Below are positions 2,407 to 27,776 of a DNA stretch of 33,022 nucleotides, piece after piece. A program made the position numbers and the translations under genes. The stretch lies in the IMG/VR virus record IMGVR_UViG_3300048834_000360, positions 1 through 33,022 of that record, one strand, 5' to 3'. The DNA comes from a virus. Each line of letters opens with the position of its first letter. Positions within the stretch are counted from its first letter, which is position 1. The notes under the pieces were generated by a model, which had not been told where the DNA came from, made no database searches, and saw only the letters and a list, made by a program, of their open reading frames with translations.

Positions 2407-2435
2407 GGGGCAAGTGTCGCCCGCAGGTGTGACAG

Positions 2436-5170: not shown

Positions 5171-5215
5171 GCTTCCGGCCTCTCACTCGTCGGTGAGTCC
5201 ACGGTGAGCCGGGTG

Positions 5216-8887: not shown

Positions 8888-8914
8888 GAGTGCATGGTCG
8901 GTGGTGTGTCACGG
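8888..8914 (-). repeat. Start-associated repeat, copy 1 (variant)
   Basis: On the minus strand CCGTGAC stands 20 bases before the ATG at 8887, with GACC 8 bases after it. Position and spacing match the four perfect GGGTGAC copies; two bases of the first motif differ. Confidence 0.55.
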
Positions 8915-8918
8915 ATAC

Positions 8919-9584
8919 CTATGGCCCGAGATGGGCAAGGGACAGGGTCGGCGTCAGGACGCCATCCCGGTTGACGGTCAGGTCGTTGCCGGCGGAGTGC
9001 CGCACGACGAGCTGCACGTAGTCGCCCTTGGCCAGGTCGAACGCGGGCGTCGTCACGGTGAGGTTGGTCGAGCTGCCTGACCCGGCTGTCGGGGTCCTGA
9101 CGTGGCCGAGGATTTCGGCGCCATTGCGGCGGATCCATGCCTGCCTAATGCCGTCCGCGTCGGCGGAGAACTCGACATAGGCGGTCGCGAGGTAGCGGCC
9201 GGTGACGGGGGCTGTCAGGCGGGTCGGGGATCCCGCGCTCCAGCAGCCCCACGCATCACTGTTCGCGCCCGCCCATTCCACGACGGTGTCGGTCGTGTTG
9301 GCGACGGTCAGGTTCGAGGAGCGGTAGGCGCGGGGGGCGAGGGTCAGGTCGTCGGCGGCGATGTGGTCGACGGCGAACAGGTCCTGCCCGTCGGTCAGGA
9401 GGATCACCGGGTAGCCGGGGCACGGCACGCACCGGGCGGCGTACTTGACGCCGGTGACGGTGCCGCCGCCGACCGAGACGGTGCAGGTCCGGTCCGACTC
9501 GACCGACACGACGGTCCCGAAGCGGACCCGGACTCGGGTCGGGTCCGGCTTGAACGCTTCCGCGGTGCGGAACAGGTCAGCCAC
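8919..9584 (-). CDS. Minor tail / tail tip protein with C1q-like C-terminal domain
   Basis: A 221-aa protein. Residues about 15-80 form an OB-like beta barrel (VRVRFGTVVSVESDRTCTVS, then VILLTDGQDLFAVDHIA). Residues about 90-221 resemble a C1q/TNF-like jelly roll (LTAPVTGRYLATAYVEFSAD, then GDYVQLVVRHSAGNDLTV). The GTG start has GAGGGAGA about 7 bases upstream and overlaps the preceding gene by 8 bases. It lies in the tail tip region, so host contact or tip assembly is likely; the domain calls are by pattern only. Confidence 0.7.
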   Translation of the reverse strand: MADLFRTAEAFKPDPTRVRVRFGTVVSVESDRTCTVSVGGGTVTGVKYAARCVPCPGYPVILLTDGQDLFAVDHIAADDLTLAPRAYRSSNLTVANTTDTVVEWAGANSDAWGCWSAGSPTRLTAPVTGRYLATAYVEFSADADGIRQAWIRRNGAEILGHVRTPTAGSGSSTNLTVTTPAFDLAKGDYVQLVVRHSAGNDLTVNRDGVLTPTLSLAHLGP

Positions 9585-10977
9585 CGGTGTCTCCCTCGTC
9601 GAACCCGGTCGCGCCGAGTGACCGGACTGTCCGGGCGACCGCCCGCATCGGTTCCCCCGCGCCCAGCGGAATCGTGACCCGGTCGAGGACCAGGACCTTG
9701 TTCACCTTGGCGCCGGAGTTGTACACGCCGATCACGTCGCCGACGTCGAGGGACGGGTCCACGATCTGCGCCCACTCGACCGCTTCCTGCAGGCCCCGCT
9801 TCTTCGCGAGGATCGTCAGCGCGGCCTGGTTGCACATGGCGTCCGACGTCATCAGAGGGGAGGCGTAGAACACGGGGACCTGCCCGAACGGCCCATACCG
9901 GTAGGTGGGGCTGGCCGGGTCGTCGTCCCACGCCTCACCCCGGAACACGCCCGTCGCTTCCGACCCCTCCCCCGCGACGATCGCCCCGTTGTAGGTGCGC
10001 TCCGCCGACAGGGACCGGGACACGTCCAGCACCATCGCCTCCTCGTCCTCGAGGTAGGTAGCGTCCGCCGTCGCCGTGTCGTAGTCCCGAACCGGCTCCA
10101 GGCGGGCGACCCCGTCACCGTCGAAGAACAGGTCCAGGCCGGCGGCCTCCGCGATCTTCACCGCGTCCGCCCACGGGTCGTTCGCTGTCTCCAGCCCGAG
10201 GACGGCCCGGTTCACCGTCGCGTCGGTCGCCGCGAACGAGCACACCACGTCATCCCACCGGTCCTCGAGCAGCGTCTGAATCGCGGTCGCGACGTTCCCC
10301 GCCTCGACCGTGTACGGCTGGGTCCACCGGTTCCGGGATATCCGCAGCGACCGGTCCGACCCGGACACGCTGACCTGCGTCCCGCCCGACCCGGACACGA
10401 TCGCGACCTTCGTGATCATGAACACCCCGAGCGGCACCAGCTCCGTCACCTCGGCCGCGTCCAGCGTCGCGGTCGACAGGGTCGCGTACACGCCCTCCGC
10501 GACGAGCACCGCGTACGTGGCGTGCTCGATCGCGAGCTGCCGGTACGTCGTCGTCGACTCCAGCATCGTGCTGTAGGTGATGCCGCGCCACAGCCGCAGC
10601 TCGTTCCCGAACGGCGCGAGCGGCGACCACTCGCTGTCGGGGACGATGCCCGCGTCGATGTACTCGACCGCCTCGCCCTCCGACACGACGAGCCCCGAAT
10701 ACGACGACACGGCGGCTGCCATCGCTGTGTAGGTGGCGTGGTCCCGGGCGAGCGCCAAGTACGTCTGCGTGACCTGCACGATGACCTGATCCGGTTCCGG
10801 CGCGGGGACCGTCAGCTGGCAGGTACGCCGCACCCCGCGACGGGCGTCGACCTCGACCTGACCACCGGTCGCCTCGAGGGTCAGGACCTGGGCGTCAGCC
10901 CGCCACACCTCCGCCCGCACGACCGCCGTGTGCGACGCCCGGACCGCGGCCTTGAAGCCGGCAGACACCGGGTACAC
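9577..10977 (-). CDS. Minor tail protein (DUF5047-like)
   Basis: A 466-aa protein. The N-terminal domain (VVRAEVWRADAQVLTLEATG, VRRTCQLTVPAP) resembles DUF5047 domains of actinophage tail proteins. A central region (WTQPYTVEAGNVATAIQTLL, DRSLRISRN) and a C-terminal part with VGDVIGVYNS are like phage tail-associated baseplate hubs. The GTG at 10977 is chosen because it begins one base after the TGA of the upstream gene; the open frame upstream of it overlaps that gene and is Cys/Arg-rich shadow. It probably connects tail tube and tip. Confidence 0.8.
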   Translation of the reverse strand: MYPVSAGFKAAVRASHTAVVRAEVWRADAQVLTLEATGGQVEVDARRGVRRTCQLTVPAPEPDQVIVQVTQTYLALARDHATYTAMAAAVSSYSGLVVSEGEAVEYIDAGIVPDSEWSPLAPFGNELRLWRGITYSTMLESTTTYRQLAIEHATYAVLVAEGVYATLSTATLDAAEVTELVPLGVFMITKVAIVSGSGGTQVSVSGSDRSLRISRNRWTQPYTVEAGNVATAIQTLLEDRWDDVVCSFAATDATVNRAVLGLETANDPWADAVKIAEAAGLDLFFDGDGVARLEPVRDYDTATADATYLEDEEAMVLDVSRSLSAERTYNGAIVAGEGSEATGVFRGEAWDDDPASPTYRYGPFGQVPVFYASPLMTSDAMCNQAALTILAKKRGLQEAVEWAQIVDPSLDVGDVIGVYNSGAKVNKVLVLDRVTIPLGAGEPMRAVARTVRSLGATGFDEGDTGG

Positions 10978-10978
10978 G

Positions 10979-13852
10979 TCAGCCGTCCACTTCCACGTAC
11001 ACCAGCTCCGCCTCCCGGCGCAGCGCACCGACCGCGCCGGTCGTCTTGATGCGCCGGCCGGTGACCCGGATGTACTTCTGCCCGCCGGCGGGGTCCTGCA
11101 CCAGCAGCACACCCTGATGCCGGATCAGCGCGTACACCGCGTTCCACTCGTCCTCGCCGAGGGTGGCGATGCGGTAGGTGCCGTCCCGCCCGTAGATCGA
11201 CCCAGCGACGACGAGAGCGGTGGACCGGCCCTTGGGCCGGAACACGCCGGTGTCCTCCGCGACCTCCTCGTCCAGACCCGCGAGGACGCGGACGGCCGCC
11301 CGGTTTAGCGACGGGGCGGTGATCGACTTCACCCACCAGGTGCCGTCGTTCGGGACTGCGAGCTGCGCCGGCTCGTTCGCCCACGCCTGGTAGCCGCTGC
11401 TGATGACGGTGACCTCGTCGGCCGTGAGCGCGCGTCGGAACACCGCAGCAGCGGTGAACTCCATGTCAGGCGGCGCGGAGGTGCTACCAATTCTGACGGC
11501 CGATGAGTTTTCCAGCGTTCCTGTTGTCGTGTCGGTGCTGCCGCTGAGTGCCTGGCCAGCCGAGTAGCCGACGACCGTGTCCGCGGCCACATTCCTAACT
11601 AGCCCGCCGACGCTCAGCGTGCCGGCAGGAATGGCTGTGGGGTATCCGCCGATAGGCGAGTTGGTCCCGTCGGTGATGTACGAGTAGATGCCGCCGCTGT
11701 AGTTGAGGACGCGCCAGCCACCCCCGACGCCGCTGAACTTCTGGATGATCTCCCGGAAGTTCGTCACCGTGGCGAACTGCCGTGTCACGGCGAGCACGGT
11801 GAACGAGTCCGACGCACCGAAGTCGATCAGGTCGTTGTCGGGGACCCCCATGTAGTCATCCGTCCCGAACAGCCAGCAGGGCTGCGTCACCGCGACCGTC
11901 TTCCGGCCCGAGGTGGAGCGGTTGATCGTCACCGTCTGCCCCGTCAACGCCGTGAACGACGTAGCCGCACCGCTGGTGATCTGCGAGCAGTCCACATCCA
12001 GCACAGTCGGGCCGTCGATGCCGTTAAGCACTTGAGCGCGGTGAATCTTGCCCGTAGTTCCATCTCCGCCGCCATTGATTGCGCCGATGTAGCACGGCGC
12101 TGTGCCCGCGAAGATCGACGTTGTCGCTGAACCGTTTCGGGTAACGCCCAACTGCGTCCAATCCACGCCGTCGGTCGAGGTCCAGAACTTCAGGTCGAAA
12201 TTGCCTCCACCGTTGTTCACATCCAACGTGACCCGTACCCAGCCAGTCGATCCGTCAGCGAAGGGCACGGCAACGCTGGATTCCTTGTCAAGGCTGCCGC
12301 CGACATATGCGCCCGTGTTCGACCACGTGAACCTCAGGAAGCCATTCGTGTTGAGCGCAAAGCCGTATGAGTCGTTAGCCGAGTCGAGCCACTTCCCGAC
12401 GAGCCAGTTGGTGGCAGCGGGTGTCCAATCGTCTGCGGCGTACTTCACCCGAATGTCGATGTCACCCGTGATGTCGAGTGCAGCCTCGTCCGGCACCGAC
12501 AGGTAGTTGGAGGCGACGCCCGGGAGGTAGACGTACGCCCCCTCAGCCGGGTCGTAGGTGAGGAGCTTTGGGTCGTTGGTGTCTGCGCCGGTGCCTGACC
12601 CGAGGCGGGCGTCGAGGGCGCTGCCGCCGGTGCCCTGGTTGACGACGGTCTGACCGCCGGGGGCGACGTTCGCGTCGATGTACCATACGGCCTGCCGCAT
12701 GAGGGCTTCCCACGGCCGTTCCCCGCCCCATTCGGACGCGATCTGCTCCGACCCGGTCACCCCGATGGCACGGGCCCGGTACTGGACCGTGACCCCGCGG
12801 GGGGCCTCGTAGTCCTTGACCACCGCCACGTAGGTGGAGTCTGGGGCGAGGACCCCGTTCCGGATCCCCGCCCACGTGACACCGCCGTCGTCGGATCGCT
12901 GGACCTCGAACGTCTGCGACGAGAACCCCGTCGGCACGCCACCGGTCACCGTGCACGTCACTGACGCTTCCTCCGGCGTCCAGGTGACCGCGATCGTCGG
13001 CATCGGCGGCGGGGTCAGGCTGATCGTGAACTCCGACGACGCCCACGGCGACCAGAACGCGGACCCGTTCACCGTCTTCGCGACCCGCACATACGCGTGG
13101 AACGTGCCGTTCGTCAGGTAGTCGCCGACCGTCGCGGACTGATCCGTGGCGGCCTGCTCCCCCGACGTCCAGAACGAGTCCGACGTGGACGGGTCGAACC
13201 CGGGATCGGCGACCTGCGCGGCGGTGAACAGCTTCAGCTCGTAGAACGACTGAGCGTCGCCGTCGGTGTCGGTGAACTCCCACGCGACCGTCGGCAGGGA
13301 CGTGTTCGTGATCGTGCCCGTCGGGGAGGTGACCGTCGCGGTCGGCTGCGCCGCCAGGTCCACGTCGACGTACACCTCATACAGGGAGCCGCGTGCCGCC
13401 GCCCCCCGGTAGTCGGTGACCTGGACGCGGAGCGCGTCGATGCTGTCCTGGTCCCACGCGCCACCGTCCGGGGCGGTCGCATAGTAGGGACCGGAATACT
13501 CGGCCAGGGTGTTCACGCCGCGGAGGGAGAACGCCGGCCCCCAGTACGACACCAGGCGGGGGATGTGGTCGCCGGGTGCACGTTCGAAGCTCGTCATGCC
13601 GAGCTGCAGGTTCAGCTTCGAGTCGGACTCGTCGGTCTTGGCCCGGCATCGCACCCGCACCTGCTTGACCCGCTGGCTCGAGGAGATCGCGAACGTGCCC
13701 ATCCCGAGGATGATCGACGCGGTCGACGACCCGACCTTGCGGATGTAGGAGGCGTCGGAGTCGTCGGACAGGCAGGCGTGCGCCGTCGCGCCGCCGGTGA
13801 GGTTGTAGGACGCGCCACCGGCGACCGTGTCGTTCGGGCGGATCGTGGTCAC
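10979..13852 (-). CDS. Large minor tail protein with Fn3-like and LamG-like domains
   Basis: A 957-aa tail tip protein. By pattern: a carbohydrate-binding-like jelly roll at about 1-180; Fn3-like domains at about 185-285 (PTVAWEFTDTDGDAQSFYEL) and 290-395 (YRARAIGV); two concanavalin/LamG-like domains at about 400-630 and 640-850 (RVTLDVNNGGGNFDLKFW; SFTVLAVTRQF); and a C-terminal domain at about 860-957 (KYIRVTGRRIKTTGAVGALR). The GTG overlaps the tape measure stop by 4 bases. The LamG part is somewhat lower in GC than neighbours, suggesting a swapped receptor-binding cassette. Confidence 0.85.
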   Translation of the reverse strand: MTTIRPNDTVAGGASYNLTGGATAHACLSDDSDASYIRKVGSSTASIILGMGTFAISSSQRVKQVRVRCRAKTDESDSKLNLQLGMTSFERAPGDHIPRLVSYWGPAFSLRGVNTLAEYSGPYYATAPDGGAWDQDSIDALRVQVTDYRGAAARGSLYEVYVDVDLAAQPTATVTSPTGTITNTSLPTVAWEFTDTDGDAQSFYELKLFTAAQVADPGFDPSTSDSFWTSGEQAATDQSATVGDYLTNGTFHAYVRVAKTVNGSAFWSPWASSEFTISLTPPPMPTIAVTWTPEEASVTCTVTGGVPTGFSSQTFEVQRSDDGGVTWAGIRNGVLAPDSTYVAVVKDYEAPRGVTVQYRARAIGVTGSEQIASEWGGERPWEALMRQAVWYIDANVAPGGQTVVNQGTGGSALDARLGSGTGADTNDPKLLTYDPAEGAYVYLPGVASNYLSVPDEAALDITGDIDIRVKYAADDWTPAATNWLVGKWLDSANDSYGFALNTNGFLRFTWSNTGAYVGGSLDKESSVAVPFADGSTGWVRVTLDVNNGGGNFDLKFWTSTDGVDWTQLGVTRNGSATTSIFAGTAPCYIGAINGGGDGTTGKIHRAQVLNGIDGPTVLDVDCSQITSGAATSFTALTGQTVTINRSTSGRKTVAVTQPCWLFGTDDYMGVPDNDLIDFGASDSFTVLAVTRQFATVTNFREIIQKFSGVGGGWRVLNYSGGIYSYITDGTNSPIGGYPTAIPAGTLSVGGLVRNVAADTVVGYSAGQALSGSTDTTTGTLENSSAVRIGSTSAPPDMEFTAAAVFRRALTADEVTVISSGYQAWANEPAQLAVPNDGTWWVKSITAPSLNRAAVRVLAGLDEEVAEDTGVFRPKGRSTALVVAGSIYGRDGTYRIATLGEDEWNAVYALIRHQGVLLVQDPAGGQKYIRVTGRRIKTTGAVGALRREAELVYVEVDG

Positions 13853-16725: not shown

Positions 16726-17243
16726 GATGCGACTCGCTTCGTGGCAGCGGCGTCGATCCGCGCGTTCAGCTCGGCGACGTACTTCGCGATGATCTGCTGC
16801 GACTCCCGGTACAGGTCCTGCCCGCTGCCGGAACCCGGCAGCAGCTGCTTACCCAGGAACCGGGGGGCGGGCCCGTAGCGGGCGTTCAGCGTCGCCACGA
16901 GGGTCTCGCCCTGCGGGGAATGCCCCTGCGCGGCGAGGTCAAGGATCGACGCGTGCGGGGCAGCGGAGATCGCCTTGAACCCGAACAGGCCCTGCTTCCG
17001 TCCTCCGGAGATGTCCCGCTTCGCGCCGGACTTCGTCAGGTACGTCAGGGTCCGCAGATGCCCGGCCGGGGCGCCGCGCTTCTTCCGCTTGAACGGGGAC
17101 GAGGCCTTCGCCGCGGTGACGCGGGCCTTGATCGTGGACCCCAGGTCCCGGTAGAACTCGCGGCGCAGGTCAGGGGCGACGTCGCGGAGGGCCTTGTTCA
17201 CCTGCTGCAGGCCACGGACGTCGATGAGCTTGCCCTGCCTCAC
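16722..17243 (-). CDS. HK97 gp10-like tail component
   Basis: A 173-aa basic protein. The start (DVRGLQQVNKALRDVAPDLR) and the following FYRDLGSTIKARVTAAK and SGGRKQGLFGF parts resemble HK97 gp10-like proteins (head-tail or tail completion). It is unusual in lying between the tail assembly chaperones and the tape measure gene rather than before the major tail gene. The GTG start lies 3 bases after the end of the chaperone frameshift product. Confidence 0.7.
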   Translation of the reverse strand: MRQGKLIDVRGLQQVNKALRDVAPDLRREFYRDLGSTIKARVTAAKASSPFKRKKRGAPAGHLRTLTYLTKSGAKRDISGGRKQGLFGFKAISAAPHASILDLAAQGHSPQGETLVATLNARYGPAPRFLGKQLLPGSGSGQDLYRESQQIIAKYVAELNARIDAAATKRVAS

Positions 17244-17246
17244 CGG

Positions 17247-17677: not shown

Positions 17678-17692
17678 GCGTGGTCCTCTCGA

Positions 17693-18667: not shown

Positions 18668-18670
18668 GGG

Positions 18671-18898
18671 TTACTCCTTCTTCCCGCGGCCGCGGGTCGT
18701 GGCGGGGGTGTCGTCGACTGCCGGGCCGTTCTCCGGCTCGGGGGTGGCGCTGACCGGGGGAACCGGAAGGGCGGCGAGCGCCGACCTGACATGCGCCTGG
18801 TGCTCGGCGGGGACCGCGGTCAGGTCGTCGTCCGTGATCGTGTAGCGGGCGAGACCGTCCGAGGTCGCGAACTCGACGGTGACGGGCAAGGTGGCCAT
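18671..18898 (-). CDS. Small protein before the major tail gene
   Basis: A 75-aa protein. Residues 1-45 form a small alpha/beta unit (PVTVEFATSDGLARYTITDD); the rest is Pro/Glu/Thr-rich and ends in RGRGKKE, likely disordered. No family is recognised. The ATG lacks a Shine-Dalgarno but carries a perfect start-associated repeat. The stop is 3 bases before the major tail ATG, so the two may be coupled. A minor structural or tail completion role is plausible. Confidence 0.7.
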   Translation of the reverse strand: MATLPVTVEFATSDGLARYTITDDDLTAVPAEHQAHVRSALAALPVPPVSATPEPENGPAVDDTPATTRGRGKKE

Positions 18899-18925
18899 GG
18901 CAGCAGGGTGGGGTGACTGTCACCC
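18899..18925 (-). repeat. Start-associated repeat, copy 2
   Basis: GGGTGAC, then 20 bases, then the ATG at 18898. GGGTGACAGTCACCC is itself a palindrome and ACCC recurs 12 bases after GGGT. The last 11 bases before the ATG match copy 3 except for one base. Confidence 0.7.
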
Positions 18926-18929
18926 GCGC

Positions 18930-19355: not shown

Positions 19356-20200
19356 ACGGCCGGCCTTCGGTAGCCGTACGTGCGGATCACCTGGTCAACC
19401 TCGGGGATCCCGGTCGGGGTGCCCGGCGTGGGGATCGACAGCCGGAACGCGCCCAAGTCGGTGTTCTGCACCGTCGCGCGGGGGTTGAGGGCGGACGGCA
19501 GGGTCGCGTCGACGGCGACGTCGAGGGCCGCGTCCTTCACCTTCGCCGGGACGGACGGGTAGCCGTGGTCGTACACCAGGACGATGGGGGCGTCCTTGGT
19601 CCACACGGATCCGGGCGGCGCGACGACCTCCCCGATGTCGAGGTCGCCCGCGAGGTCAGCAACGTCCCAGGCGTCACCGTCGACGGTGACGGACACGACG
19701 CCAGAGATCAGGGGGTCGCCGGTCAGGATCCGGTCGGTGCCGTCGCCACGGGTGGCCAGACGGCGGCGGCGCGGGACGAGAGCGACCTGCATGAGCGCCT
19801 CGAGCCACTCGGTGACCTCCAGCCGCTTGTCGACCAGCAGCCCGGGCGGGTACTTCGTGGTGTCGGAGAACTCCGCACGCCGGGCCCGCAGTTCGTCGAC
19901 TCCGAACAGGTGACCTCCGACGACCTCGACCTCGGTGACCGGGGCGATGCCGACACCGCCGACGGTCGCCGTCCAGGTCGCGGTGTAGGAGCCGAGGTCG
20001 GCGAGTTGCGCTGCCGTGCACGCGAAGGTGTACGTGCCGGTCGTGGCCGGCGTCTTCGTCGCCGTCCCGGATGCGACGGTCGCGCCGGCCGCATCCCTCA
20101 CCACGACGGTAACCGCCCCCGTGGCGTCGGCGAGGTCGCCCTCACCGTCCCGCACGTACAGGGTCAGGACGCCGCCCCAGCCCTTGGCGAGGCGCTCCAC
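19352..20200 (-). CDS. Head-tail connector with N-terminal Ig-like domain
   Basis: A 282-aa protein with two parts. Residues about 1-95 look like an Ig-like beta sandwich (VTVVVRDAAGATVASGTATK, then GTYTFACTAAQLADLGSYTA). Residues about 96-282 resemble gp6-like head-tail adaptors (FGVDELRARRAEFSDTTKYP, LEVTEWLEALMQVALVPRRR, IPEVDQVIRTYGYRRPAV). The GTG starts 6 bases after the upstream stop. The fused Ig domain would be exposed near the neck. Confidence 0.75.
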   Translation of the reverse strand: MERLAKGWGGVLTLYVRDGEGDLADATGAVTVVVRDAAGATVASGTATKTPATTGTYTFACTAAQLADLGSYTATWTATVGGVGIAPVTEVEVVGGHLFGVDELRARRAEFSDTTKYPPGLLVDKRLEVTEWLEALMQVALVPRRRRLATRGDGTDRILTGDPLISGVVSVTVDGDAWDVADLAGDLDIGEVVAPPGSVWTKDAPIVLVYDHGYPSVPAKVKDAALDVAVDATLPSALNPRATVQNTDLGAFRLSIPTPGTPTGIPEVDQVIRTYGYRRPAV

Positions 20201-20206
20201 GACGGC

Positions 20207-20476
20207 CTACTTCGTGCTGGCGCGCGGGCCGCGCCCCCTGGACCGCTTCACCGGCATCGACGCGCCGGGGCGAACGGCCTTGTCCTCGACGTCGTCCTGC
20301 TGCACGGCGGCCGTCTCCACGTCGACGTCCTCCTCGTGCACAGCGGCTCCCGTCCCGAGCTGCCGCTGGCGCCGGGCCTCGTCTTCGGGGATGGGGGAAC
20401 CGACCGCGTACTTCAGGAAGGTCACCCCGTTCGGTCCGGTCGCGTACACGCGTTCCTTGGAGCGGTACTTGCTCAT
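20207..20476 (-). CDS. Small head-tail region protein
   Basis: An 89-aa protein beginning MSKYRSKERVYATGPNGVTF and ending in a basic tail (KRSRGRGPRASTK). The conserved-looking front part (FLKYAVGSPIPEDEARRQRQ) is followed by an acidic disordered stretch. The ATG has ACGGAGGCG upstream. The frame is open up to a GTG at 20563 and that extension encodes CAVCGQSTADCH; a longer start there would close the 90-base gap, but it has no ribosome binding site. Role unknown; probably a head or connector component. Confidence 0.65.
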   Translation of the reverse strand: MSKYRSKERVYATGPNGVTFLKYAVGSPIPEDEARRQRQLGTGAAVHEEDVDVETAAVQQDDVEDKAVRPGASMPVKRSRGRGPRASTK

Positions 20477-20566
20477 CGTCGCCTCCGTCTCTGCGATCGT
20501 GATCGTGTCCAGGTGGCAGTCCGCGGTCGACTGACCGCACACCGCGCACCGTTGGCCGCGCACCGG

Positions 20567-20722
20567 CTAGTCGGTGGCGAGGATTCCGGCGGTCCGCAGC
20601 GCGGCGAGGATCGCGTTGATCTTGTTCGCGCAGTCCGCTGCCGTGGCGCTGCCCGGGACGGCGATGTCCGCGATGGCGGCCGCGGCCGCCCAGGCGCCCT
20701 TATCTTCGTCGAACGTCGGCAT
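20567..20722 (-). CDS. 51-aa protein, head fibre/decoration-like
   Basis: A short gene found by direct reading: MPTFDEDKGAWAAAAAIADI to LRTAGILATD. The C-terminal pattern, TAADCANKINAILAALRTAG, resembles the helical end of phage head fibre or decoration proteins (ADxxxKxNxxLAALRxAGI). AAAGGGG lies about 7 bases before the ATG. It sits right after the endonuclease gene and before the head-tail genes. I am fairly sure it is a gene; the function is a suggestion. Confidence 0.65.
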   Translation of the reverse strand: MPTFDEDKGAWAAAAAIADIAVPGSATAADCANKINAILAALRTAGILATD

Positions 20723-20734
20723 CTCGTGCCCCTT

Positions 20735-21241
20735 TCAGGTGCGGATCGGGCCGAGCACGTCGCGCGTCTGCATGACGTACGTGGCGGCTGAGAGCATCGT
20801 GTCCGGGTCGTCACCGAACTGCCCGAGACCGGAGTTGCAGGGGATGCACAGCAGGCCGCGCACTGCCCCCGTCTCGTGGTCGTGGTCGACGGCGAACAGC
20901 TCGCCGCCCTTCCGGCCCCGCGGATCGGTGCCGCCGCAGATCGCGCACCGGCCGCCCTGGTCCGCGAGGCGCTGGTCATACTCGTCATGGGTGATGCCGT
21001 ACTTCCAGCGAAACTGCCGGTCACGGTCCTTCCTGCGGCGATCCGGGTCAGCCCAGTCGGCCTTGCGCCTTGCCTGCTTGCGCTCGCGGACCTTGTCCAC
21101 GTTGGCCGCCTGGTAGGCGTCGACCCGACTGCGGGAGCAGGGCCTGCAGTACGAGTCCAGACCGTCACGCGTGGCGCGGTTCCGGTACCAGAACTCGAAT
21201 GTCGCAGGCTTCAGCTCGCCGCAGTCGGGGCAACGCTTCAC
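20735..21241 (-). CDS. Recombination endonuclease VII-like nuclease
   Basis: A 168-aa nuclease. The N-terminus has a zinc module (C4, C7, C32, C35). Residues about 82-160 match T4 endonuclease VII family proteins: C99-AI-C102, VDHDH (118-122), LLCIPCNSGLG with C132, C135 and N136. Such enzymes cleave Holliday junctions and branched DNA before packaging. The GTG starts 3 bases after the capsid stop. A nuclease between capsid and connector genes is unusual and suggests insertion of a homing-type gene or a packaging role. Confidence 0.9.
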   Translation of the reverse strand: MKRCPDCGELKPATFEFWYRNRATRDGLDSYCRPCSRSRVDAYQAANVDKVRERKQARRKADWADPDRRRKDRDRQFRWKYGITHDEYDQRLADQGGRCAICGGTDPRGRKGGELFAVDHDHETGAVRGLLCIPCNSGLGQFGDDPDTMLSAATYVMQTRDVLGPIRT

Positions 21242-21244
21242 GCT

Positions 21245-22519
21245 CTAGAACCCAGACAGTTCGCAGAAGGCCTTCGGCTGCACGACGCCGAACGCCGCGC
21301 GGATGACCGCGAGCATCGCGACCTTCCGCTTGACGAAGTAGTCGCTGTGCGAGTCGCTCATCGAGATCGACAGGCCCTCGCGCAGCCACAGCAGCGCCTG
21401 GGAGAAGTCGCCGACCACGGGGTTGCCCTCGGGGAACGCGACGTGGACGATCGGGTTGAGGCCCCACACGGTCCGCGACGGGTTGCCACCCGGACCGCCG
21501 AACATGTAGACGCCGTTGACGTCCTTCTCCAGGAACAGCTGCTCGGCGTCGTTCGGGTGGATGCCCAGGACGCTCGGCTCGAACACGCCTTCCGCGGCCA
21601 CGCGGATCTTGGTGATGCCCTTGTGGACGCAGTCGGCGCGGGAGTCGGCGCCGAGTGCCTGCGCGGAGATCCCGATGGTGTTGACGAGGCCGGTGAGGTT
21701 CTCGCCGAGGCCGTCGCCGGCGATGATCTGCGACTGCAGGCGGGACCGCACCATGTAGCCGAGTCGCTGGTTGACGAGGGTCTCGAGCTGGCCGGCGTCG
21801 GCGAGGATCCGCTTGGTGGCCGGGATGAAGGTGGTGATGTCCTTCACCAGGCTGGTGACGTCCTCGTAGACGAGCGCCGACTCGGGGGCCGCGGTGTCCT
21901 CGGCGGTCTCGGCGGCCGCGTTGGTGTAAGTGGTCTCCTGGATCCACTCGACGGTGTCGGAGTCGGTGGAGCCGACCGTGACGACGTCGAGGACGGACAG
22001 GTTCGCCTTCGGGGTGAGGGTGATGATGTCCTTGCGGTCGTTGACGACGAGGTCACCGGCGCTGCCGGCCGCCGACGTGATGAGCGTCTTCAGCTCGGCG
22101 CGGGAAAGGGCCTTGATGGCGCCGGTCGAGCCGAACATGACGTCGCGGTTGTCGAGGGCGCCGGACGCCTTCAGGGCCGCGTACTGCTCGGAGTCGAGGA
22201 CCTTCCGCGCGACGGACAGGACCTGCTCCTTGCGCTCCTCCATGTCGCGCTTGGACACGGGGGCGGGACCATCCGAGGACCAGCCGCGGGCCTTGGCGAG
22301 CCGCTGCTCGAGGTCGGTGATCTCGTCACGGACCGCGTCGTATGCCTTCGACAGGGTGTCGACCTTCTCGAACGCCTCCGTGTTGGTGGCGAAGTCGACG
22401 CCCTCCTCGCGAGCGGACTTGCGGGCCTGGTCGAACGCTGCCCACTTCGTGGCCGCATCCGCCTTCTTGGCGTCGATCGCATCGGCGAGCGCGCGGACCT
22501 CACTGCGGTTGTCACTCAT
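21245..22519 (-). CDS. Major capsid protein, HK97 fold
   Basis: A 424-aa capsid protein. Residues 1-80 are a charged coiled coil (ALADAIDAKKADAATKWAAF), the delta/scaffold part removed by the protease. Then follow the N-arm, E-loop and P-domain (FIPATKRILADAG, VNQRLGYMVRSRLQSQIIAG) and the A-domain (GLSISMSDSHSDYFVKRKVA). The ATG of MSDNRSE has AAGGGA upstream and overlaps the protease stop by 8 bases; the longer frame from 22534 is not needed. It follows portal and protease genes as in HK97. Confidence 0.95.
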   Translation of the reverse strand: MSDNRSEVRALADAIDAKKADAATKWAAFDQARKSAREEGVDFATNTEAFEKVDTLSKAYDAVRDEITDLEQRLAKARGWSSDGPAPVSKRDMEERKEQVLSVARKVLDSEQYAALKASGALDNRDVMFGSTGAIKALSRAELKTLITSAAGSAGDLVVNDRKDIITLTPKANLSVLDVVTVGSTDSDTVEWIQETTYTNAAAETAEDTAAPESALVYEDVTSLVKDITTFIPATKRILADAGQLETLVNQRLGYMVRSRLQSQIIAGDGLGENLTGLVNTIGISAQALGADSRADCVHKGITKIRVAAEGVFEPSVLGIHPNDAEQLFLEKDVNGVYMFGGPGGNPSRTVWGLNPIVHVAFPEGNPVVGDFSQALLWLREGLSISMSDSHSDYFVKRKVAMLAVIRAAFGVVQPKAFCELSGF

Positions 22520-23165
22520 TGCTGATCCCTTCATGCATGGGTCTCACGAGCAGCGCCTGTGCGCGCTCGACGTCTACGGTGGGGTGGCTGTCACCCGTGG
22601 CCCCCGAATCGGACTTCTCGTCGGGGATCGGGGCGGGGGATGCGGGGCCCGGCTGGGTGGCGGACGCCGCGGAGATCAGGTCGGTGTCGGGGTTCATGCC
22701 CAGGAGCGTGGGGCCGACTTCGAACACGGTGACCCGGTGCAGTTCGCGGGACATGCGCCCGGTGTCGGGGTCCTCGACCCACTTGACCTCGTCGGCGAAG
22801 TAGCCGAACGAGAACTGGGTGACGCGGCGGCCCTTGAGGAGTCGGTGGACCTGCACCGCGAACGGGGAGTCCAGGTCGACCTGGGCCTTGACCCACAGGC
22901 CCTTCTCCGTCTCGCGGGCCTCGACGACGTACCCGATGTGGGCGAACGGGTCGTCCCAGTCGTGGGACCAGATGACGGGGATCGGGTCGCCCTTGGCGGC
23001 CCACAGGGCGAGGGTGTCGGCGAACGCGCCGGGCATGACGACGTCGCCGCCCAGGTCCTTGTTCCCGAACACCGACACGATCGCCTCGAACGTGCCGGCG
23101 TCGGAGTCGACGGCCTTGAACTCGGCGTCGAATGACTTCGTCTCGCGCAGGGACAGCGTGGCCAT
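22512..23165 (-). CDS. Prohead protease, HK97 (U35) family
   Basis: A 217-aa serine protease. Family blocks are clear: FEAIVSVFGNKDLGGDVVMP, IWSHDWDDPFAHIG with catalytic His68, VTQFSFGYF with catalytic Ser119, and the acidic residue of the triad probably Glu149 (VTVFEVG). The C-terminal 50 residues are low-complexity. It would process the capsid delta domain. The ATG carries a perfect start-associated repeat instead of a Shine-Dalgarno. Confidence 0.92.
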   Translation of the reverse strand: MATLSLRETKSFDAEFKAVDSDAGTFEAIVSVFGNKDLGGDVVMPGAFADTLALWAAKGDPIPVIWSHDWDDPFAHIGYVVEARETEKGLWVKAQVDLDSPFAVQVHRLLKGRRVTQFSFGYFADEVKWVEDPDTGRMSRELHRVTVFEVGPTLLGMNPDTDLISAASATQPGPASPAPIPDEKSDSGATGDSHPTVDVERAQALLVRPMHEGISNE

Positions 23166-23192
23166 GGCAGCAGGGTCAGACCCGTGTCACCC
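23166..23192 (-). repeat. Start-associated repeat, copy 3
   Basis: GGGTGAC, then 20 bases, then the ATG at 23165. GGGT and ACCC arms are 12 bases apart. The 11 bases before the ATG read ACCCTGCTGCC, as in copy 2. The portal stop (TAG, 23196-23198) lies outside it, so the repeat is not a by-product of coding sequence. Confidence 0.75.
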
Positions 23193-23195
23193 GGA

Positions 23196-24470
23196 CTACT
23201 CGACGAGCGTGTCGGACACGATCCGGTCGGCGATCCCCTGGGCTGGGGTGCCGGCCGTGGATTCGCCCGCGACGCCGACGGGAGCCATGTTCTGCGGGAT
23301 GAACACGGTGTCCGCGATCGGGTCAGCGATGGGCGGCAGCTTCTCCGCCCGACGGCGCTCGTTGATGGTGTTCACGCTCGACTGCTGGTTGAGCATGTGC
23401 ATCTTGGCGCGGGTCTCGGGGTCGGGAAGGAGCCAGGAGTCGGTATTGATCTCGGCGATGAGACCGTCCCATGCGGGCTCGTCGTCGATGAGCTGCACTT
23501 GGATGTCCTGCTCGACCATGATCAGCTTGCCCTTGACCGCGTCGTGCATGGCCTTGCGGTACTCCAGGACGTTCGCCAGGGTCGCGTTCTCCATCAGCCC
23601 GACCAGCGGCGGGGGCACGTCCAGCGCGGACAGCACCTCCTGCCGGGAGAACTCCCGCATGGGCAGCAGCCCGAGGTCGGCGGGCGTGGTCCCGATCGCC
23701 TTGACGTTCAGGTCGGAGTTGGCGACGACGAAGTTGCCGGCGTTCTCCGGTCCTGCGTACAGCTTGCGGAGCTCGGCGCGGAGCATGTCGACTGCGCGGG
23801 GGTTCATGCCGGAGGCAGAGAACACTGCCCTCGGGGAGACCCCGTTGCGCAGGCTGTAGGACTGGTACACCTGCGCGGCGTCCTCCATGGCGATGGAGGC
23901 GCGGAGGACTTCCAGCGGGGATCGGCCGCCCAGCAGTTGGAAGTGCAGGACCTCCTGGGGCAGCAGCTGGTAGGTGGTGCCGTTGATGGTGATGTCGTAG
24001 ACGACCGGCCCCAGGTCGTCCTGCGTCACCCGGACGTGTGTCCAGGGGATCGGCCACAGCCGCTGCACGCTCGAGCCCGGGCCGCTGACCCGGTCCTTCC
24101 ACACCAGGTGGTGGCCGTGCACGTACATCGACCGGAACAGTTCGCCGAGCCACCGGAACTGCGACATGCGGGGTGCGGGCTTGCGCATGAGCCGGACCGC
24201 GTCGTGGTGGCGGACCCGCTCCAGGGTCTCCGAGTCGGGGTCCTCCAGGTAGAACCACAGGGGATTCCGGGCCGCGGAGTAGGCGAGCTTGTTGATCGTC
24301 GCGAACACGAACGGCTGGGAGCGGTACACGTACTCGTAGGTGACCGAGTAGTCGGCGTCCGAGCGCAGGAGGTCGATGCTGCCGCCCCCGCCGACGGCCA
24401 GCGACGGGTTCGTCAGGTGGTCGGCGCGCCGGATCGCGACGGAGCGGCCGTTCGACAGGACGACGGGCAT
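23196..24470 (-). CDS. Portal protein, HK97 family
   Basis: A 424-aa portal that would form the ring through which DNA enters. Typical blocks are YRSQPFVFATINKLAYSAAR, MYVHGHHLVWKDR, LLPQEVLHFQLLGGRSPLEV, LNVKAIGTTPADLGLLPMRE and VPPPLVGLMENATLANVLEY. Length is normal. The ATG overlaps the upstream stop by one base (TGATG). It sits after terminase and before protease. Confidence 0.95.
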   Translation of the reverse strand: MPVVLSNGRSVAIRRADHLTNPSLAVGGGGSIDLLRSDADYSVTYEYVYRSQPFVFATINKLAYSAARNPLWFYLEDPDSETLERVRHHDAVRLMRKPAPRMSQFRWLGELFRSMYVHGHHLVWKDRVSGPGSSVQRLWPIPWTHVRVTQDDLGPVVYDITINGTTYQLLPQEVLHFQLLGGRSPLEVLRASIAMEDAAQVYQSYSLRNGVSPRAVFSASGMNPRAVDMLRAELRKLYAGPENAGNFVVANSDLNVKAIGTTPADLGLLPMREFSRQEVLSALDVPPPLVGLMENATLANVLEYRKAMHDAVKGKLIMVEQDIQVQLIDDEPAWDGLIAEINTDSWLLPDPETRAKMHMLNQQSSVNTINERRRAEKLPPIADPIADTVFIPQNMAPVGVAGESTAGTPAQGIADRIVSDTLVE

Positions 24471-24694
24471 CAGCTGGCCTCCTCACCGGACGGCAGGTTC
24501 TGGAGCCACGCGATCCGCTCGCGAGGGATGACGACCTCCCCGTCGACCCGGTCGATCGCCTTCTCGCCCAGGTAGGCGGCGTGCCGCAGGACCAGGCAGT
24601 CGGCGTAGACGCCGGCCACGATCCCGCGGAGCGACTCGTCGTCGGTGAGATGGACCACGACCGTCTTCGCCGTGAGGCGGTTCAGCCAGCGCAT
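24470..24694 (-). CDS. Small Sm-like beta-barrel protein between terminase and portal
   Basis: A 74-aa protein with an SH3/Sm-like pattern: AKTVVVHLTDDESLRGIVAG, then DCLVLRHAAYLGEKA, and VDGEVVIPRERIAWLQNLPS. In bacterial LSm-like proteins the same strand order occurs. It lies between the large terminase and portal genes, as in many actinophages, with unknown function. The ATG carries a start-associated repeat and a weak GAGG. Confidence 0.75.
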   Translation of the reverse strand: MRWLNRLTAKTVVVHLTDDESLRGIVAGVYADCLVLRHAAYLGEKAIDRVDGEVVIPRERIAWLQNLPSGEEAS

Positions 24695-24721
24695 GGCCTC
24701 AGGGTCAGCGACTCGTCACCC
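24695..24721 (-). repeat. Start-associated repeat, copy 4
   Basis: GGGTGAC, then 20 bases, then the ATG at 24694; GACCCTG is placed as in copy 3. Here the TGA of the motif is also the stop of the large terminase gene (24716-24718), so coding function contributes to it. Confidence 0.65.
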
Positions 24722-26143
24722 GGCGGCCGCGTAGAAGCCGGCGTCGTCCTCCGCCTCGGCCAGGAACACCGCCATCGTGACCGCCGTCAGCGCGTCGATC
24801 GGTTTCTCGCTCTTCCGCTTGTGGAACATGAACCCGCCCGGGGTCTCCCGGATCGCCGCGGCCCGCATCGCGGCCGCGAGCTCAGGGTCGTTTCCGTGCG
24901 CCAGCCGGCCGTCGACGATCGCCCGGTAGAGCACGTCCGCGGCCTTCGTCATGCGGGTCACCGACTGGGGGAAGTCCTCGACGGGCAGCCCCTCCGCGTC
25001 GAGCATCATCATCGTCCGGATCATCGTGTGCGGGTCGAACGCGATCCGCTCGAGGTAGAAGTCCTGGTGCAGGTCCCGGATGAGTTCCTCCACGGCCGCG
25101 TAGTCCAGGTAGCCGAGGTCGTCGTCGGCGCGGAACACCCACACGAGGACGTTCAAGATCCCCGCGGTGTCCTTCTGCACGAGCGCGACCGCGGTGGTGT
25201 CCTTCTTCGGCGCGGCGTCGACCGCCAGATACGCCGGCTCGTCCGGGTCGATGTGGGGCTTGGCCCCGTTCGACTCCCACAGGGGCTCCGACATCCATGC
25301 GCCGACGCCCTTCTCGGGCCACCGGTTCAAGTGCAGCTGCTCGAACAGCGCCAACGGCATCCGGCGGTGCTGCCGCTCCAGGTACTCCAGCGCGATCCAC
25401 GGCGCCGGGTTCGCATACCTCCACGTCGCCGGGTCATGCGGGTCCATGCCCGGCTTCGCTCCGAAATGCACCATGAACAGCGCCTTGTCGTCCCCCGCCA
25501 GGGCCCGCTGGTACAGGTCCCACAGAGGGCCCTCCCGCCGGGGTCCGACGGTGGAGATGTTCAACGTGAGCGGCTGCGCCCGAGCGGCATCAGCCGAGGT
25601 GAGGGCGTCGTACACGTCGCTGTTCCGGTGCGCCCACAGCTCGTCGATGATGCTGGCCGACGGGTTCAGGCCGTGGAGCTTGCCACCGCCGTCGAAGTCC
25701 GACGACAGGCACTTCATGATCGCCCCGGTCTCCGGCACCTCGATCACCGACTTGTACGGCTTACACGCCGCGGCCAGCATCGGGTTCATCTCGATCATCC
25801 GGCGAGCGGTGCTGAACACGATTCCGGCCTGCTCCTTCTTCGCCGCCGCCGTGTATACCTCGGCGCCGCCCTCCCCGTCAGCGAGCAGGTGGTACAGGCC
25901 CAGGCCCGCGGTCAAGGTCGACTTTGCTCCCTTCCGGGCGAGCAGGATCAGCGCCTCCCGCGTGACCCGCAGCCCCGACTTGTCCAGGCGGCCGTAGATC
26001 GGCCGGATGATCTCGTCGCGCTGGAAGGGCTCGAGGATGAAGGGCTGCCCCGTCCACCGGCCCTTCGTCTGCTTCAGGTGCCGCTCGAAGAACCTGACCA
26101 CCCGTTGTTCCGCGCGTACCGACGCCGCGCTGCGCCGCGGCAC
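24716..26143 (-). CDS. terL: Terminase large subunit
   Basis: A 475-aa ATPase-nuclease that packages DNA. The ATPase domain has a Walker A-type motif at 69-76 (ARKGAKST) and a Walker B at 165-168 (SIIDELWAHR). The C-terminal RNase H-like nuclease has acidic residues D309 (LAVDAAPKKDTT), D370 (AFDPH) and D450 (EKPIDALTAVTMA). Length is complete for this family. The GTG lies 6 bases after the small-subunit stop. Confidence 0.96.
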   Translation of the reverse strand: MPRRSAASVRAEQRVVRFFERHLKQTKGRWTGQPFILEPFQRDEIIRPIYGRLDKSGLRVTREALILLARKGAKSTLTAGLGLYHLLADGEGGAEVYTAAAKKEQAGIVFSTARRMIEMNPMLAAACKPYKSVIEVPETGAIMKCLSSDFDGGGKLHGLNPSASIIDELWAHRNSDVYDALTSADAARAQPLTLNISTVGPRREGPLWDLYQRALAGDDKALFMVHFGAKPGMDPHDPATWRYANPAPWIALEYLERQHRRMPLALFEQLHLNRWPEKGVGAWMSEPLWESNGAKPHIDPDEPAYLAVDAAPKKDTTAVALVQKDTAGILNVLVWVFRADDDLGYLDYAAVEELIRDLHQDFYLERIAFDPHTMIRTMMMLDAEGLPVEDFPQSVTRMTKAADVLYRAIVDGRLAHGNDPELAAAMRAAAIRETPGGFMFHKRKSEKPIDALTAVTMAVFLAEAEDDAGFYAAAG

Positions 26144-26149
26144 GGCCGC

Positions 26150-26620
26150 CTACCCGACGTCCAGGTCGTCGTTCAGCGACTTCAGGATCGACTGCCCGGC
26201 CAGCTGGATGAGGCCCAGGCGCAGCCGGGACGACAAGGTCAGGCCGAACTGGTCAGCCAGCCGCGCGTACAGGGCGGCGGAGTCCCGTTCGACGCGCAGC
26301 ATCGGGTTCACGATCGGCCCGCGCGGGCCCTGCACCAGGACCCCGAACCGTTCGATCTGCTCGCCGGCCTGCCGGTGCCGCCACGCCGCGAGGCACATCA
26401 TGCGGACGGCCTCGAGGTCGCCGTCCCGCATGCCCTGCACGGTCAGCTCCTGCATCGCGGTCGACCACAGGGGGTGCACTGCCTGTGGAAGGTCGTCCGG
26501 GGGTGCGGGCAGGGTGGGGCCCTTCGGGACGAGGACCGCGACCTTGGTCCGCTTCTTGCCGGCCGCGGGCCGGTTCCCGGTTCCGCGGCGGGCCCTGGTC
26601 GGGTCGGCTTGCCTACCCAC
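26150..26620 (-). CDS. terS: Terminase small subunit, P27 family
   Basis: A 156-aa DNA-recognition subunit. The C-terminal half shows the P27-type pattern: GPIVNPMLRVERDSAALYAR, then QFGLTLSSRLRLGL. The N-terminus is basic and Pro-rich. The GTG at 26620 overlaps the upstream stop by one base (TAGTG) and has an AGAGGTGG ribosome binding site; the frame open beyond it is inside the upstream gene. It is followed by terL. Confidence 0.88.
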   Translation of the reverse strand: MGRQADPTRARRGTGNRPAAGKKRTKVAVLVPKGPTLPAPPDDLPQAVHPLWSTAMQELTVQGMRDGDLEAVRMMCLAAWRHRQAGEQIERFGVLVQGPRGPIVNPMLRVERDSAALYARLADQFGLTLSSRLRLGLIQLAGQSILKSLNDDLDVG

Positions 26621-27033
26621 TACTCCACCTCTCCGAAAGCATCCTTGACACCCCGGTTGATCACCGATTGGAGCTGCACACAGCGCCACGCCAAGTTCTT
26701 CGGCAGGCCCGGCTCACGCGCCAGTCTCGCCAGCGTGCCCGCCACCACCCGCGCCTGGACGATCGCCGCCGCCAACTGCGAAACCGGATCCCCCGGCGCC
26801 GAGTCCTTCAGCCCCGCCACCAGGCCCTCGAGGGTCGCCGCGAATGCTGCATCGTGATCCGGCACGCTTACCACCACAGGAGTCAGTTCCGCACCGCCCT
26901 CCTCCCACAACGACACAACTTGTCGGCGCTCATACTTCGCCGCGTGCCGGCACCGGTCCGAGCAGAACCTGCGACGCCGGCCGGGTCCAGGCTCGCGCGG
27001 CGGGAGCAGCACTCCGCACCACTCGCACTTCAC
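26620..27033 (-). CDS. Zinc-finger protein between HNH and terminase genes
   Basis: A 137-aa protein. The N-terminus is a zinc finger (C3, C6, C24, C28; CEWCGVLLPP...RRFCSDRCRH). The rest is helical (FAATLEGLVAGLKDSA, LAAAIVQARVVAGTLARLAR). The GTG and the HNH stop share GTGA, so translation is coupled. The FCSDRC unit is like those repeated in the HNH gene upstream, so both may bind the cos/terminase region. No family is certain. Confidence 0.75.
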   Translation of the reverse strand: MKCEWCGVLLPPREPGPGRRRRFCSDRCRHAAKYERRQVVSLWEEGGAELTPVVVSVPDHDAAFAATLEGLVAGLKDSAPGDPVSQLAAAIVQARVVAGTLARLAREPGLPKNLAWRCVQLQSVINRGVKDAFGEVE

Positions 27034-27749
27034 GCGACGGAGTTTCCGCGGTAGGCGTTGCATCCGAAGTGAGCGAGGCGCACGTTGTCCCAGACGTGAA
27101 GTCCGCCCTTGCTGATCGGGAGAACATGGTCGATCGAGGCGCTCTCCGGCTGACATCCCCGACGCACGAGCACCGGCGCGCTGCACAACCAGCAGATTCC
27201 GTTGTCGCGCTCTAACAGAGCGGCAATGGTGATGGATCGGTCTCCCTTCTTGAGCACATGCCGTCTCAGCTCGCCGCTGGGACCCGTCTTCTGCCACGAA
27301 CGTCTGCATTGCTTGCGGCAGTAGGTACGACCCCCGGAGACTTCGGATCCGCAAGTCGGGCAGGCGCCGATGGGTTGGTTCATGGCCCGGACCACTTTGA
27401 GTCGCTCGCGGCGGGCCAGTTCACTGGGCCTGACCACCGACATCTGGCATGCCTTCGAGCAGTACTTCCGGTCACCTCTGTTCGGCCACGGGTCGAAGAG
27501 GTGCTCGCAGGCTGCGCATGCCTGCAGTGCTGTCCGGGCACGCCTTGCCCGGCGGGCCTTCTCCAGATACGCCCGCGTCTTGCAGTCATCCGAGCAGAAG
27601 CGCCGTCGAGACTCCTTCGGGCGGTCGAACGCCTTCCCACACCCCTGGCACGGCGCTGGGGGATCGGAGTGTCCACGCCGACACCGGTAGCACAGATCGC
27701 TGCCGCGGTAGGTGCGTCCTCCGCACGCATCACAGTTCGCTGTCGCCAT
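27030..27749 (-). CDS. HNH endonuclease with four zinc modules
   Basis: A 239-aa nuclease at the start of the late operon. Four successive Cys4 modules lie at C6/C9/C20/C23, C34/C37/C52/C56, C78/C81/C97/C101 and C130/C133/C144/C148. The HNH domain follows: C186/C189, DH at 207-208 (ASIDHVLPISKGGLHVWDNV), N222, H227, C230-N231. HNH proteins beside terminase genes are needed for cos cleavage in several phages, so a packaging role is likely. The ATG has the start-associated repeat rather than a Shine-Dalgarno. Confidence 0.9.
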   Translation of the reverse strand: MATANCDACGGRTYRGSDLCYRCRRGHSDPPAPCQGCGKAFDRPKESRRRFCSDDCKTRAYLEKARRARRARTALQACAACEHLFDPWPNRGDRKYCSKACQMSVVRPSELARRERLKVVRAMNQPIGACPTCGSEVSGGRTYCRKQCRRSWQKTGPSGELRRHVLKKGDRSITIAALLERDNGICWLCSAPVLVRRGCQPESASIDHVLPISKGGLHVWDNVRLAHFGCNAYRGNSVA

Positions 27750-27776
27750 GTGGCGAAGGTCGCATCAGCGTCACCC
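27750..27776 (-). repeat. Start-associated repeat, copy 5
   Basis: GGGTGAC, then 20 bases, then the ATG at 27749, with GACC 8 bases after the first motif. It lies in non-coding DNA before the first late gene, so no reading frame explains it. Confidence 0.65.

Follow-up and report, generated by a model that had tools for sequence, protein, structure and literature searches.

What function could a short repeat have that stands at one fixed distance before the start codons of several phage genes? The question is raised by the window, i.e. the whole stretch of 33,022 nt of viral DNA analysed here (IMGVR_UViG_3300048834_000360). On its minus strand, GGGTGAC occurs exactly 20 nt before the ATG of four genes, and a CCGTGAC variant lies upstream of a fifth (Table 1). 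An earlier note that pointed out these copies considered an operator, a translation signal or part of a leaderless promoter. As judged from sequence comparison, the repeat is very probably the upstream half of a bipartite phage late promoter, the partner of which is a -10 element of the form nAnnnT located 8 nt downstream.

Copies of the repeat in the window

All five copies described previously are in place, each with GACC or CACC 8 nt past the motif. The claimed scarcity of Shine-Dalgarno (SD) sequences also holds, as none of the five starts has an SD match of at least 4 letters. At three more copies, absent from the earlier note, +1 is not a start codon (GTGAC at 22594-22590, 5219-5215 and, with some uncertainty, 20814-20810). 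The window also contains an integrase gene.

Table 1. Putative promoter sites and associated genes in the window. G numbers denote related phage records.
Feature	Position	Strand	Elements	Gene context	Counterparts
Late promoter	27749..27776	-	GGGTGAC 27776-27770, -10 GACCTT 27761-27756	+1 = ATG (27749) of HNH gene 27030-27749	
Late promoter	24694..24721	-	GGGTGAC 24715-24721, -10 GACCCT	+1 = ATG (24694) of 74-aa gene 24470-24694 (PHROG 6750)	Before homologue in G1; with variants in G405, G406, G407, G408, G410, G468
Late promoter	23165..23192	-	GGGTGAC 23186-23192, -10 GACCCT	+1 = ATG (23165) of head maturation protease gene 22512-23165	G1, G3, G4, G468, G473
Late promoter	18898..18925	-	GGGTGAC 18919-18925, -10 CACCCT	+1 = ATG (18898) of 75-aa gene 18671-18898 preceding next tail gene	G1
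Late promoter, variant	8887..8914	-	CCGTGAC 8908-8914, -10 GACCAT	+1 = ATG (8887) of tail-fibre-like gene 8438-8887	Orthologous sites in G3, G4
Late promoter within 3' end of protease gene	22569..22596	-	GGGTGAC 22596-22590, -10 CACCGT 22581-22576	Predicted +1 22569; 50-nt leader with SD, then capsid-gene ATG 22519	
Major capsid protein gene	21245..22519	-		PHROG 10; leadered, SD-led, downstream of 22569 promoter	
Late promoter for lysis genes	5194..5221	-	GGGTGAC 5221-5215, -10 CACCGT	Predicted +1 5194; 24-nt leader with SD, then holin ATG 5170	
Holin gene	4931..5170	-		Pfam Phage_r1t_holin; downstream of 5194 promoter	
Possible late promoter (uncertain)	20789..20816	-	CGGTGAC / CACGAT	Within ORF 20735-21241; SD-led gene not found up to 100 nt away	
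Candidate activator gene	5656..6159	-		167-aa protein with HTH and zinc ribbon	
WhiB-family gene, alternative candidate factor	32702..32935	-			

Window-level statistics depend on the reference set. Four copies at one fixed offset from about 45 gene starts, a figure taken from the earlier note, have a chance probability of 8e-10 (3e-8 over 40 offsets). On the other hand, a blind scan of k-mers and offsets against every ATG of the window is not decisive: it gave p 2.6e-5 among 30,443 tests and did not single out the repeat. The bare 7-mer is mildly enriched, with 18 occurrences against 10.8 expected, a number reached in 5 of 100 shuffles. It is the comparative pattern counts, beyond these window statistics, that decisively support the repeat as real.

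A bipartite motif shared by related phages

The consensus is GTGAC (-25 to -21)-N8-nAnnnT (-12 to -7), with +1 being the start codon at the sites reported earlier. Searching relatives for GTGAC-N8-NANNNT-N6-RTG returned 33 matches in 12 phage records, on a single strand in each record, compared with one match for the reversed control pattern. After removal of two near-duplicate records (G404, G002), 29 start-linked matches in 10 records remained. Without the start codon, the late strand of the 10 related records (273 kb) contains 74 copies of GTGAC-N9-A-N3-T and the other strand three; 15 other spacings average 9.3, so that the real spacing stands out as a single spike. A set of 10 records fetched by the candidate protein discussed below, without using the motif, gave 50 copies on one strand and two on the other, with six reversed-control matches, several of these records being near copies of one another. 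Chance or coding bias, in favour of which only the modest p value of the window-only scan can be cited, is ruled out by the reversed control, the spacing spike and the 50:2 strand split, and its probability is negligible.

When the 29 start-linked copies are picked without regard to the -10 region, A-11 is present in 28, T-7 in 28 and C-1 in 26. A T at -12 is found in only 5 of the 74 sites, the position being G or C instead. A sigma-A -10 element does not usually have such a base there. Positions -36 to -31 carry 0.02-0.11 bits, i.e. there is no -35 element. The GGGT-N12-ACCC dyad noted earlier does occur in three of the five window copies, but it is not kept in the relatives, which carry CATCAT, CAGACT, GATGCT or CAACAT at -10. 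Since only A-11 and T-7 are retained, the dyad or hairpin reading was dropped.

Motif copies occupy orthologous places across divergent phages (Table 1). In a TerL tree, the motif phages fit a single origin with one change (support 73/79). Some copies in G3 and G4 sit inside genes and may be due to chance. A pattern scan of genome contigs yielded 53 stretches, each with one match. Four records were set aside: L005 and L007, viral pattern matches with a G+C content of 59% and 53%, were taken as chance, and L012 and L013, each 5 kb long with a protease of 31-35% identity, contain zero copies. No spike at the motif spacing is seen in the named phages phiC31, Elener and NBR1, or in ten prophage regions whose TerL shares 31-36% identity with that of the window; together, these ten regions contain 9 copies in forward and 11 in reverse orientation. 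None of the titles turned up by our literature searches names the motif.

Leaderless and leadered copies

If the repeat were a translation-initiation signal, or if a GGGU/ACCC mRNA hairpin replaced the SD sequence, the fixed 20-nt distance to the ATG and the lack of SD at the five window starts of the earlier note would be accounted for. However, at 45 of the 74 late-strand copies +1 does not coincide with a start codon, and an SD-led open reading frame follows within 100 nt in 29 of these 45, as compared with 25% of random positions; for the hairpin, the ACCC half varies. The distribution of starts and SD-led genes argues for a promoter rather than a translation signal; the latter is not supported and is highly improbable. 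For the other 16 non-start copies, an SD-led gene is lacking over the next 100 nt, and a 4-letter SD-like match is also found at 8 of the 29 leaderless sites. The clearest leadered case is the capsid gene, the promoter of which is followed by a 50-59-nt leader with SD and lies in the same slot in all nine records holding the gene.

Proposed late promoter

The start-linked copies bear out the suggestion of a leaderless promoter part, composed of a GTGAC half and an nAnnnT half. The motif is bipartite and rigid, it is biased to one strand, it occupies conserved gene slots, and it is accompanied by conserved -10 and initiator bases and by a consistent pattern of leaders and SD sequences. From this we infer a transcription start at +1, the need for an activator and late expression. 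According to the proposed mechanism, RNA polymerase with the principal sigma factor of the host would read the weak -10 element (A-11 and T-7 fixed, no T-12, no -35) only when a factor occupies GTGAC at -25 to -21, the 8 bp between the two being rigid. One copy would serve each late module: the first late gene, the gene after the large terminase, the protease, capsid and head-tail genes, the tail fibre and lysis. An mRNA whose +1 coincides with the start codon would be leaderless; the others would have a short leader carrying an SD.

The same GTGAC could be bound by a repressor that, in the lysogen, keeps late promoters silent which would otherwise be active. The rigid position within the promoter and the integrase gene of the window fit such an operator, but the copies are alike in orientation and in their spacing to the -10 element. 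With no -35 element and a weak -10 element, little basal activity would be left to repress, and a repressor would find no -35 to overlap with. We therefore consider an operator improbable.

Candidate activator

For a promoter that depends on a factor, the best candidate is, with moderate confidence, the phage HTH/zinc-ribbon protein, which would bind GTGAC. Its model suggests an HTH (about residues 1-45), a low-confidence linker and a zinc ribbon with a long helix (about 105-161). The protein is encoded in all five long motif records, at no fixed position. It is absent from the shorter motif records G1, G404, G407-G410 and G2 (4-25 kb), which are probably fragments. The 13 controls, phages and prophage regions taken together, have neither the motif spike nor the protein. 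Since the motif phages fit a single origin, this co-occurrence may also reflect shared ancestry. Three members match, with the HTH part only, the profile PHROG 323 'transcriptional regulator, D5-like' (E 8e-7, 3e-4 and 2e-6); 'D5-like' is the PHROG label alone, and the accessible text of a T5 paper contains no match for D5. Two forms of the protein have no matching INPHARED record. A fold search gave nothing significant: the best Foldseek E was 1.8, and the VIA match, to a Tc3 transposase HTH, had a Z of 5.5 with an rmsd of 1.6 for 44 residues.

Less probable, yet to be reckoned with, is that the same promoter is served by a host-encoded factor (an alternative sigma factor or a PafBC/WhiB-type activator) or by the phage's own WhiB. 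Host WYL activators use -26 elements, according to the available parts of PMC11804915 and PMC10693628, and WhiB genes are present in the window, G3 and G4. Furthermore, distant HTH/zinc-ribbon homologues exist without the motif: at eight Actinomycetota loci a weak scan found neither the motif nor a substitute pentamer. Against a host factor, the motif is rare among the genomes searched, which may not be those of the host: its S-A..T form occurs in 75 of 296 genomes of the actinobacterial class of Pseudonocardia halophobica, with at most 6 copies per genome, and the TAnnnT form in 23 of 60 genomes of its family. A host regulon of this kind was thus rejected for the 60 family and 296 class genomes sampled around this species. 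WhiB as universal factor was rejected as well, being found in just three of nine records tested; several of the nine are fragments, but G405, one of the six without WhiB, is terminally redundant (1975-bp terminal repeat).

Returning to the HTH/zinc-ribbon protein, we tentatively propose that, bound at -26, it might redirect the actinobacterial housekeeping polymerase to about seven late promoters. Several of these would give leaderless mRNAs, the modules would be switched separately, and translation would proceed partly without SD sequences. The layout of such a protein would be GcrA-like, although our searches found no relation to GcrA.

Implications

A rigid two-part promoter at each late module would be common to divergent uncultured phages; the isolates and prophages examined gave no sign of it. 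It would provide a late regulon open to direct test, together with a named candidate for its activator. The motif would also fix gene starts and predict late transcription units in this phage group from sequence alone. The findings suggest that phages, too, have adopted the -26 mode of activation, which host regulators of DNA damage and stress are known to use, and that leaderless starts form part of the virion assembly programme.

Comparison with known systems

Like the start-associated sequences of cluster K mycobacteriophages, the repeat is short and found at the starts of a gene subset. This resemblance, which the earlier note mentions as short of a match, is superficial: the cluster K element, as given in the accessible text of PMC3203893, is the 13-bp GGGATAGGAGCCC located 3-7 bp from starts, whereas the repeat lies 20 nt away in promoter register. 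With T4 MotA/AsiA sigma appropriation the late promoters would have in common that a phage element, in T4 the MotA box, stands in for the -35 (PMC7403470, in part), but the T4 system serves middle genes. P2 has multiple late promoters, one per late operon, and a zinc-finger phage activator, Ogr (PMC3931495, in part). Its sites are, however, TGT-N12-ACA rather than GTGAC-N8-nAnnnT, and Ogr has CX2CX22CX4C; no search here linked it to the candidate. Caulobacter GcrA resembles the candidate in size and layout, with 173 aa, a DNA-binding domain at 1-45, an unstructured linker and a sigma-binding C-terminus (PMC7403470, in part). It differs in that GcrA reads methylated DNA and the candidate has a zinc ribbon, and GcrA was neither among PDB sequence matches to the candidate at E up to 1 nor among the Foldseek and VIA matches listed.

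In mycobacteria, leaderless genes show a preference for cytosine at -1, a -10 element at the normal distance and no SD (PMC4633059, as far as its accessible text goes). The phage sites agree in C-1, in A-11 and T-7 in register with RTG at +1, and in the lack of SD, and differ by the rarity of T-12 and by the added fixed -26 element. The latter has a parallel in the PafBC and SiwR promoters, for which the available parts of PMC11804915 and PMC10693628 describe a -26 element, the housekeeping sigma factor and sigma adaptation. No WYL-domain protein was detected among 20 window proteins scanned with Pfam. The mycobacterial PafBC promoters (LexA/RecA-independent, P1) have the form tTGTCRgtg - 8 nt - TannnT (PMC5656591, in part). 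Both systems thus place an upstream element that ends 8 nt before the -10 hexamer, in the phages as a single spike; they differ in the element itself, which is (G)GGTGAC with a GTGAC core in the phages, in the G or C instead of T at -12, and in the genes served, phage late genes here and DNA damage there.

Conservation of the motif among related phages

The window is a 33,022-base virus record with a G+C content of about 69% and carries an integrase, a WhiB gene, HNH genes, the small and large terminase, portal, protease, capsid, tape measure and tail genes, a holin and a peptidase-type lysin. A megablast comparison of positions 8000-32900 with INPHARED gave no matching record. Eleven related records (G001-G004, G404-G410) came to light when we scanned viral contigs with a sequence pattern and searched for homologues of the protease, the terminase and a 74-aa protein; their terminase identities to the window, where compared, range from 71% down to 36%. 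G405 (IMGVR_UViG_3300036761_001467) has a 1975-bp direct terminal repeat and is therefore probably a complete genome. The near-copies G404 and G002 were excluded from later counts.

GGGTGAC lies 20 nt ahead of the ATG of four late genes, and CCGTGAC at a fifth, exactly as an earlier note had claimed. Within the window, the signal is modest when every ATG is allowed and strong with gene starts alone; comparison with the relatives makes it overwhelming. The pattern GTGAC-N8-NANNNT-N6-RTG (R, A or G) has 33 matches in the window and the eleven relatives, throughout on one strand per record, and a control pattern has one. Irrespective of a start codon, GTGAC-N9-A-N3-T has 74 late-strand occurrences against three on the opposite strand in 10 records (273,154 bases). 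At 15 alternative spacings (3 to 18) the late-strand mean is 9.3, and the excess is likewise lost when the A-to-T gap is altered.

The motif also stands at homologous starts, where its absence would have counted against the earlier note. Including the further phage records G468, G473, G476 and G477, leaderless copies are found at the 74-aa gene (window, G001, G405-G408, G410, G468; in G003 and G473 the first RTG falls one base further on), the protease gene (window, G001, G003, G004, G468, G473), the tail-fibre gene (window, G003, G004) and the zinc-finger gene heading the late genes (G003, G004, G405-G409, G468, G476, G477). In the window this first slot is occupied by an HNH/zinc-finger ORF, and the zinc-finger homologue follows just downstream, partly overlapping and devoid of its own copy. 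This arrangement gives the impression that the promoter was captured by the HNH gene.

In five Pseudonocardia species (L033, L045, L056, L058, L067), a near-identical GGGTGAC-N8-TACCGT-N6-ATG lies ahead of one 185-aa ORF; two Sciscionella species (L055, L075) show the same layout ahead of an ORF of 853-855 aa. A repeated GTGACCCAGGCGTGACCCA follows the lysin gene in G004 (oriented; 25808 and 26049) and G003 (25068); it has A-11 but not T-7.

Features of the window
Feature	Position	Strand	Evidence	Remark
DUF3263 protein	2161-2577	(-)	Pfam, E 9.9e-28	by integrase end
Holin-gene copy, GTGAC	5219-5215			precedes holin
HTH/zinc-ribbon protein	5656-6159	(-), late strand	BLAST ORF comparison	candidate factor
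Capsid-gene copy, GTGAC	22594-22590			leader with SD
Zinc-finger-gene homologue	26620-27054	(-)
HNH/zinc-finger ORF	27030-27749	(-)
ParB-like protein, 392 aa	31155-32333	(-)	PHROG 6218, E 1.2e-50	close to WhiB gene
WhiB-family gene	32702-32935	(-)	Pfam, 1.1e-10	also in G003 and G004

Anatomy of the putative promoter

In the matrix, favoured C-28, G-27 and G-26 precede GTGAC (-25 to -21). The next eight bases are under little constraint; then come G or C at -12, A-11, T-7 and a favoured C-1. To guard against circularity, a set of 29 copies was selected on two criteria only, GTGAC-N20-RTG and an ORF no shorter than 60 aa. Chosen without the -10 region, this set has A-11 in 28/29, T-7 in 28/29 and C-1 in 26/29 copies; the sole copy lacking A and T belongs to a probably spurious G003 ORF. 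Judged by sequence, these are features of a sigma -10 element plus a -1 initiator cytosine, and a published study (PMC4633059) reports this register for leaderless genes of mycobacteria. A -35 element is absent, since positions -36 to -31 of the start-linked set hold only 0.02-0.11 bits. The -10 hexamers at conserved slots include GACCCT, CACCGT, CATCAT, CAGACT, GATGCT and CAACAT, and this variety rules out the GGGT/ACCC dyad as the constraint.

Nor was a translation signal, another earlier suggestion, borne out, as 45 of the 74 late-strand copies lack RTG at +1 and 29 of these 45 have, no more than 100 nt downstream, a Shine-Dalgarno (SD) sequence and the start of an ORF that is 60 aa or longer (random positions, 25%; with a 5-letter SD, 16/45 versus 9%). 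The clearest case is the capsid gene, preceded by a copy with a 50-59-nt leader and SD in all nine records holding it (window, G001, G003, G004, G405-G408, G410). On the contrary side, 16/45 non-start copies have no SD-led ORF within 100 nt, several in G003 and G004 sit within genes, and 8/29 leaderless sites show a 4-letter SD-like match.

A candidate factor and the proposed mechanism

When ORFs were compared by BLAST, the long records proved to be linked, virion families aside, mainly by the zinc-finger gene, by HNH genes and by a 134-173-aa protein that combines an N-terminal HTH with a zinc ribbon; this protein is present in 5/5 long records (window, G003, G004, G405, G406). Matches to PHROG 323 ('transcriptional regulator, D5-like') were obtained for three members of its family. 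The AlphaFold2 model (mean pLDDT 79.5, pTM 0.41) shows a three-helix HTH, predicted with confidence, and a zinc ribbon that carries a long helix; the linker between the two has low confidence. Structure searches gave no significant match. A new scan by this protein alone fetched 14 loci, ten in new records, several of them closely alike, where GTGAC-N9-A-N3-T occurs 50 times on one strand and twice on the other, with six reversed-control matches. In five long ones among them, the copies occupy the same gene slots. Neither protein nor motif spike was seen in 13 control sequences (ten prophage regions, phiC31, Elener, NBR1).

In a terminase tree of 26 rows, the motif phages all lie to one side of a branch with weak support (73/79), with one change counted, so protein and motif may owe their association simply to shared ancestry. 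At E 1e-10 the protein has no match in 394 genomes of the Pseudonocardia class; at 1e-6 across the phylum 8/396 genomes match, mainly in the HTH. The regions around these eight homologues lack the GTGAC motif; thus, either members of the wider family recognise different sequences, or this protein is not the factor. A blind scan saw no substitute element. Distant homologues at L193-L199 lie in Actinomycetota genomes of 1.8-3.6 Mb without the motif, two of these close to terminase-like genes.

Most likely, late transcription is carried out by the host principal holoenzyme in an activator-dependent manner. A factor bound at -25 to -21 would stand in for the absent -35 element and would also compensate for the absent T-12; the chances that it is the HTH/zinc-ribbon protein are about even. 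The rigid 8-bp gap to the -10 element is as long as that in PafBC promoters, in which an activator at -26 adapts sigma-A.
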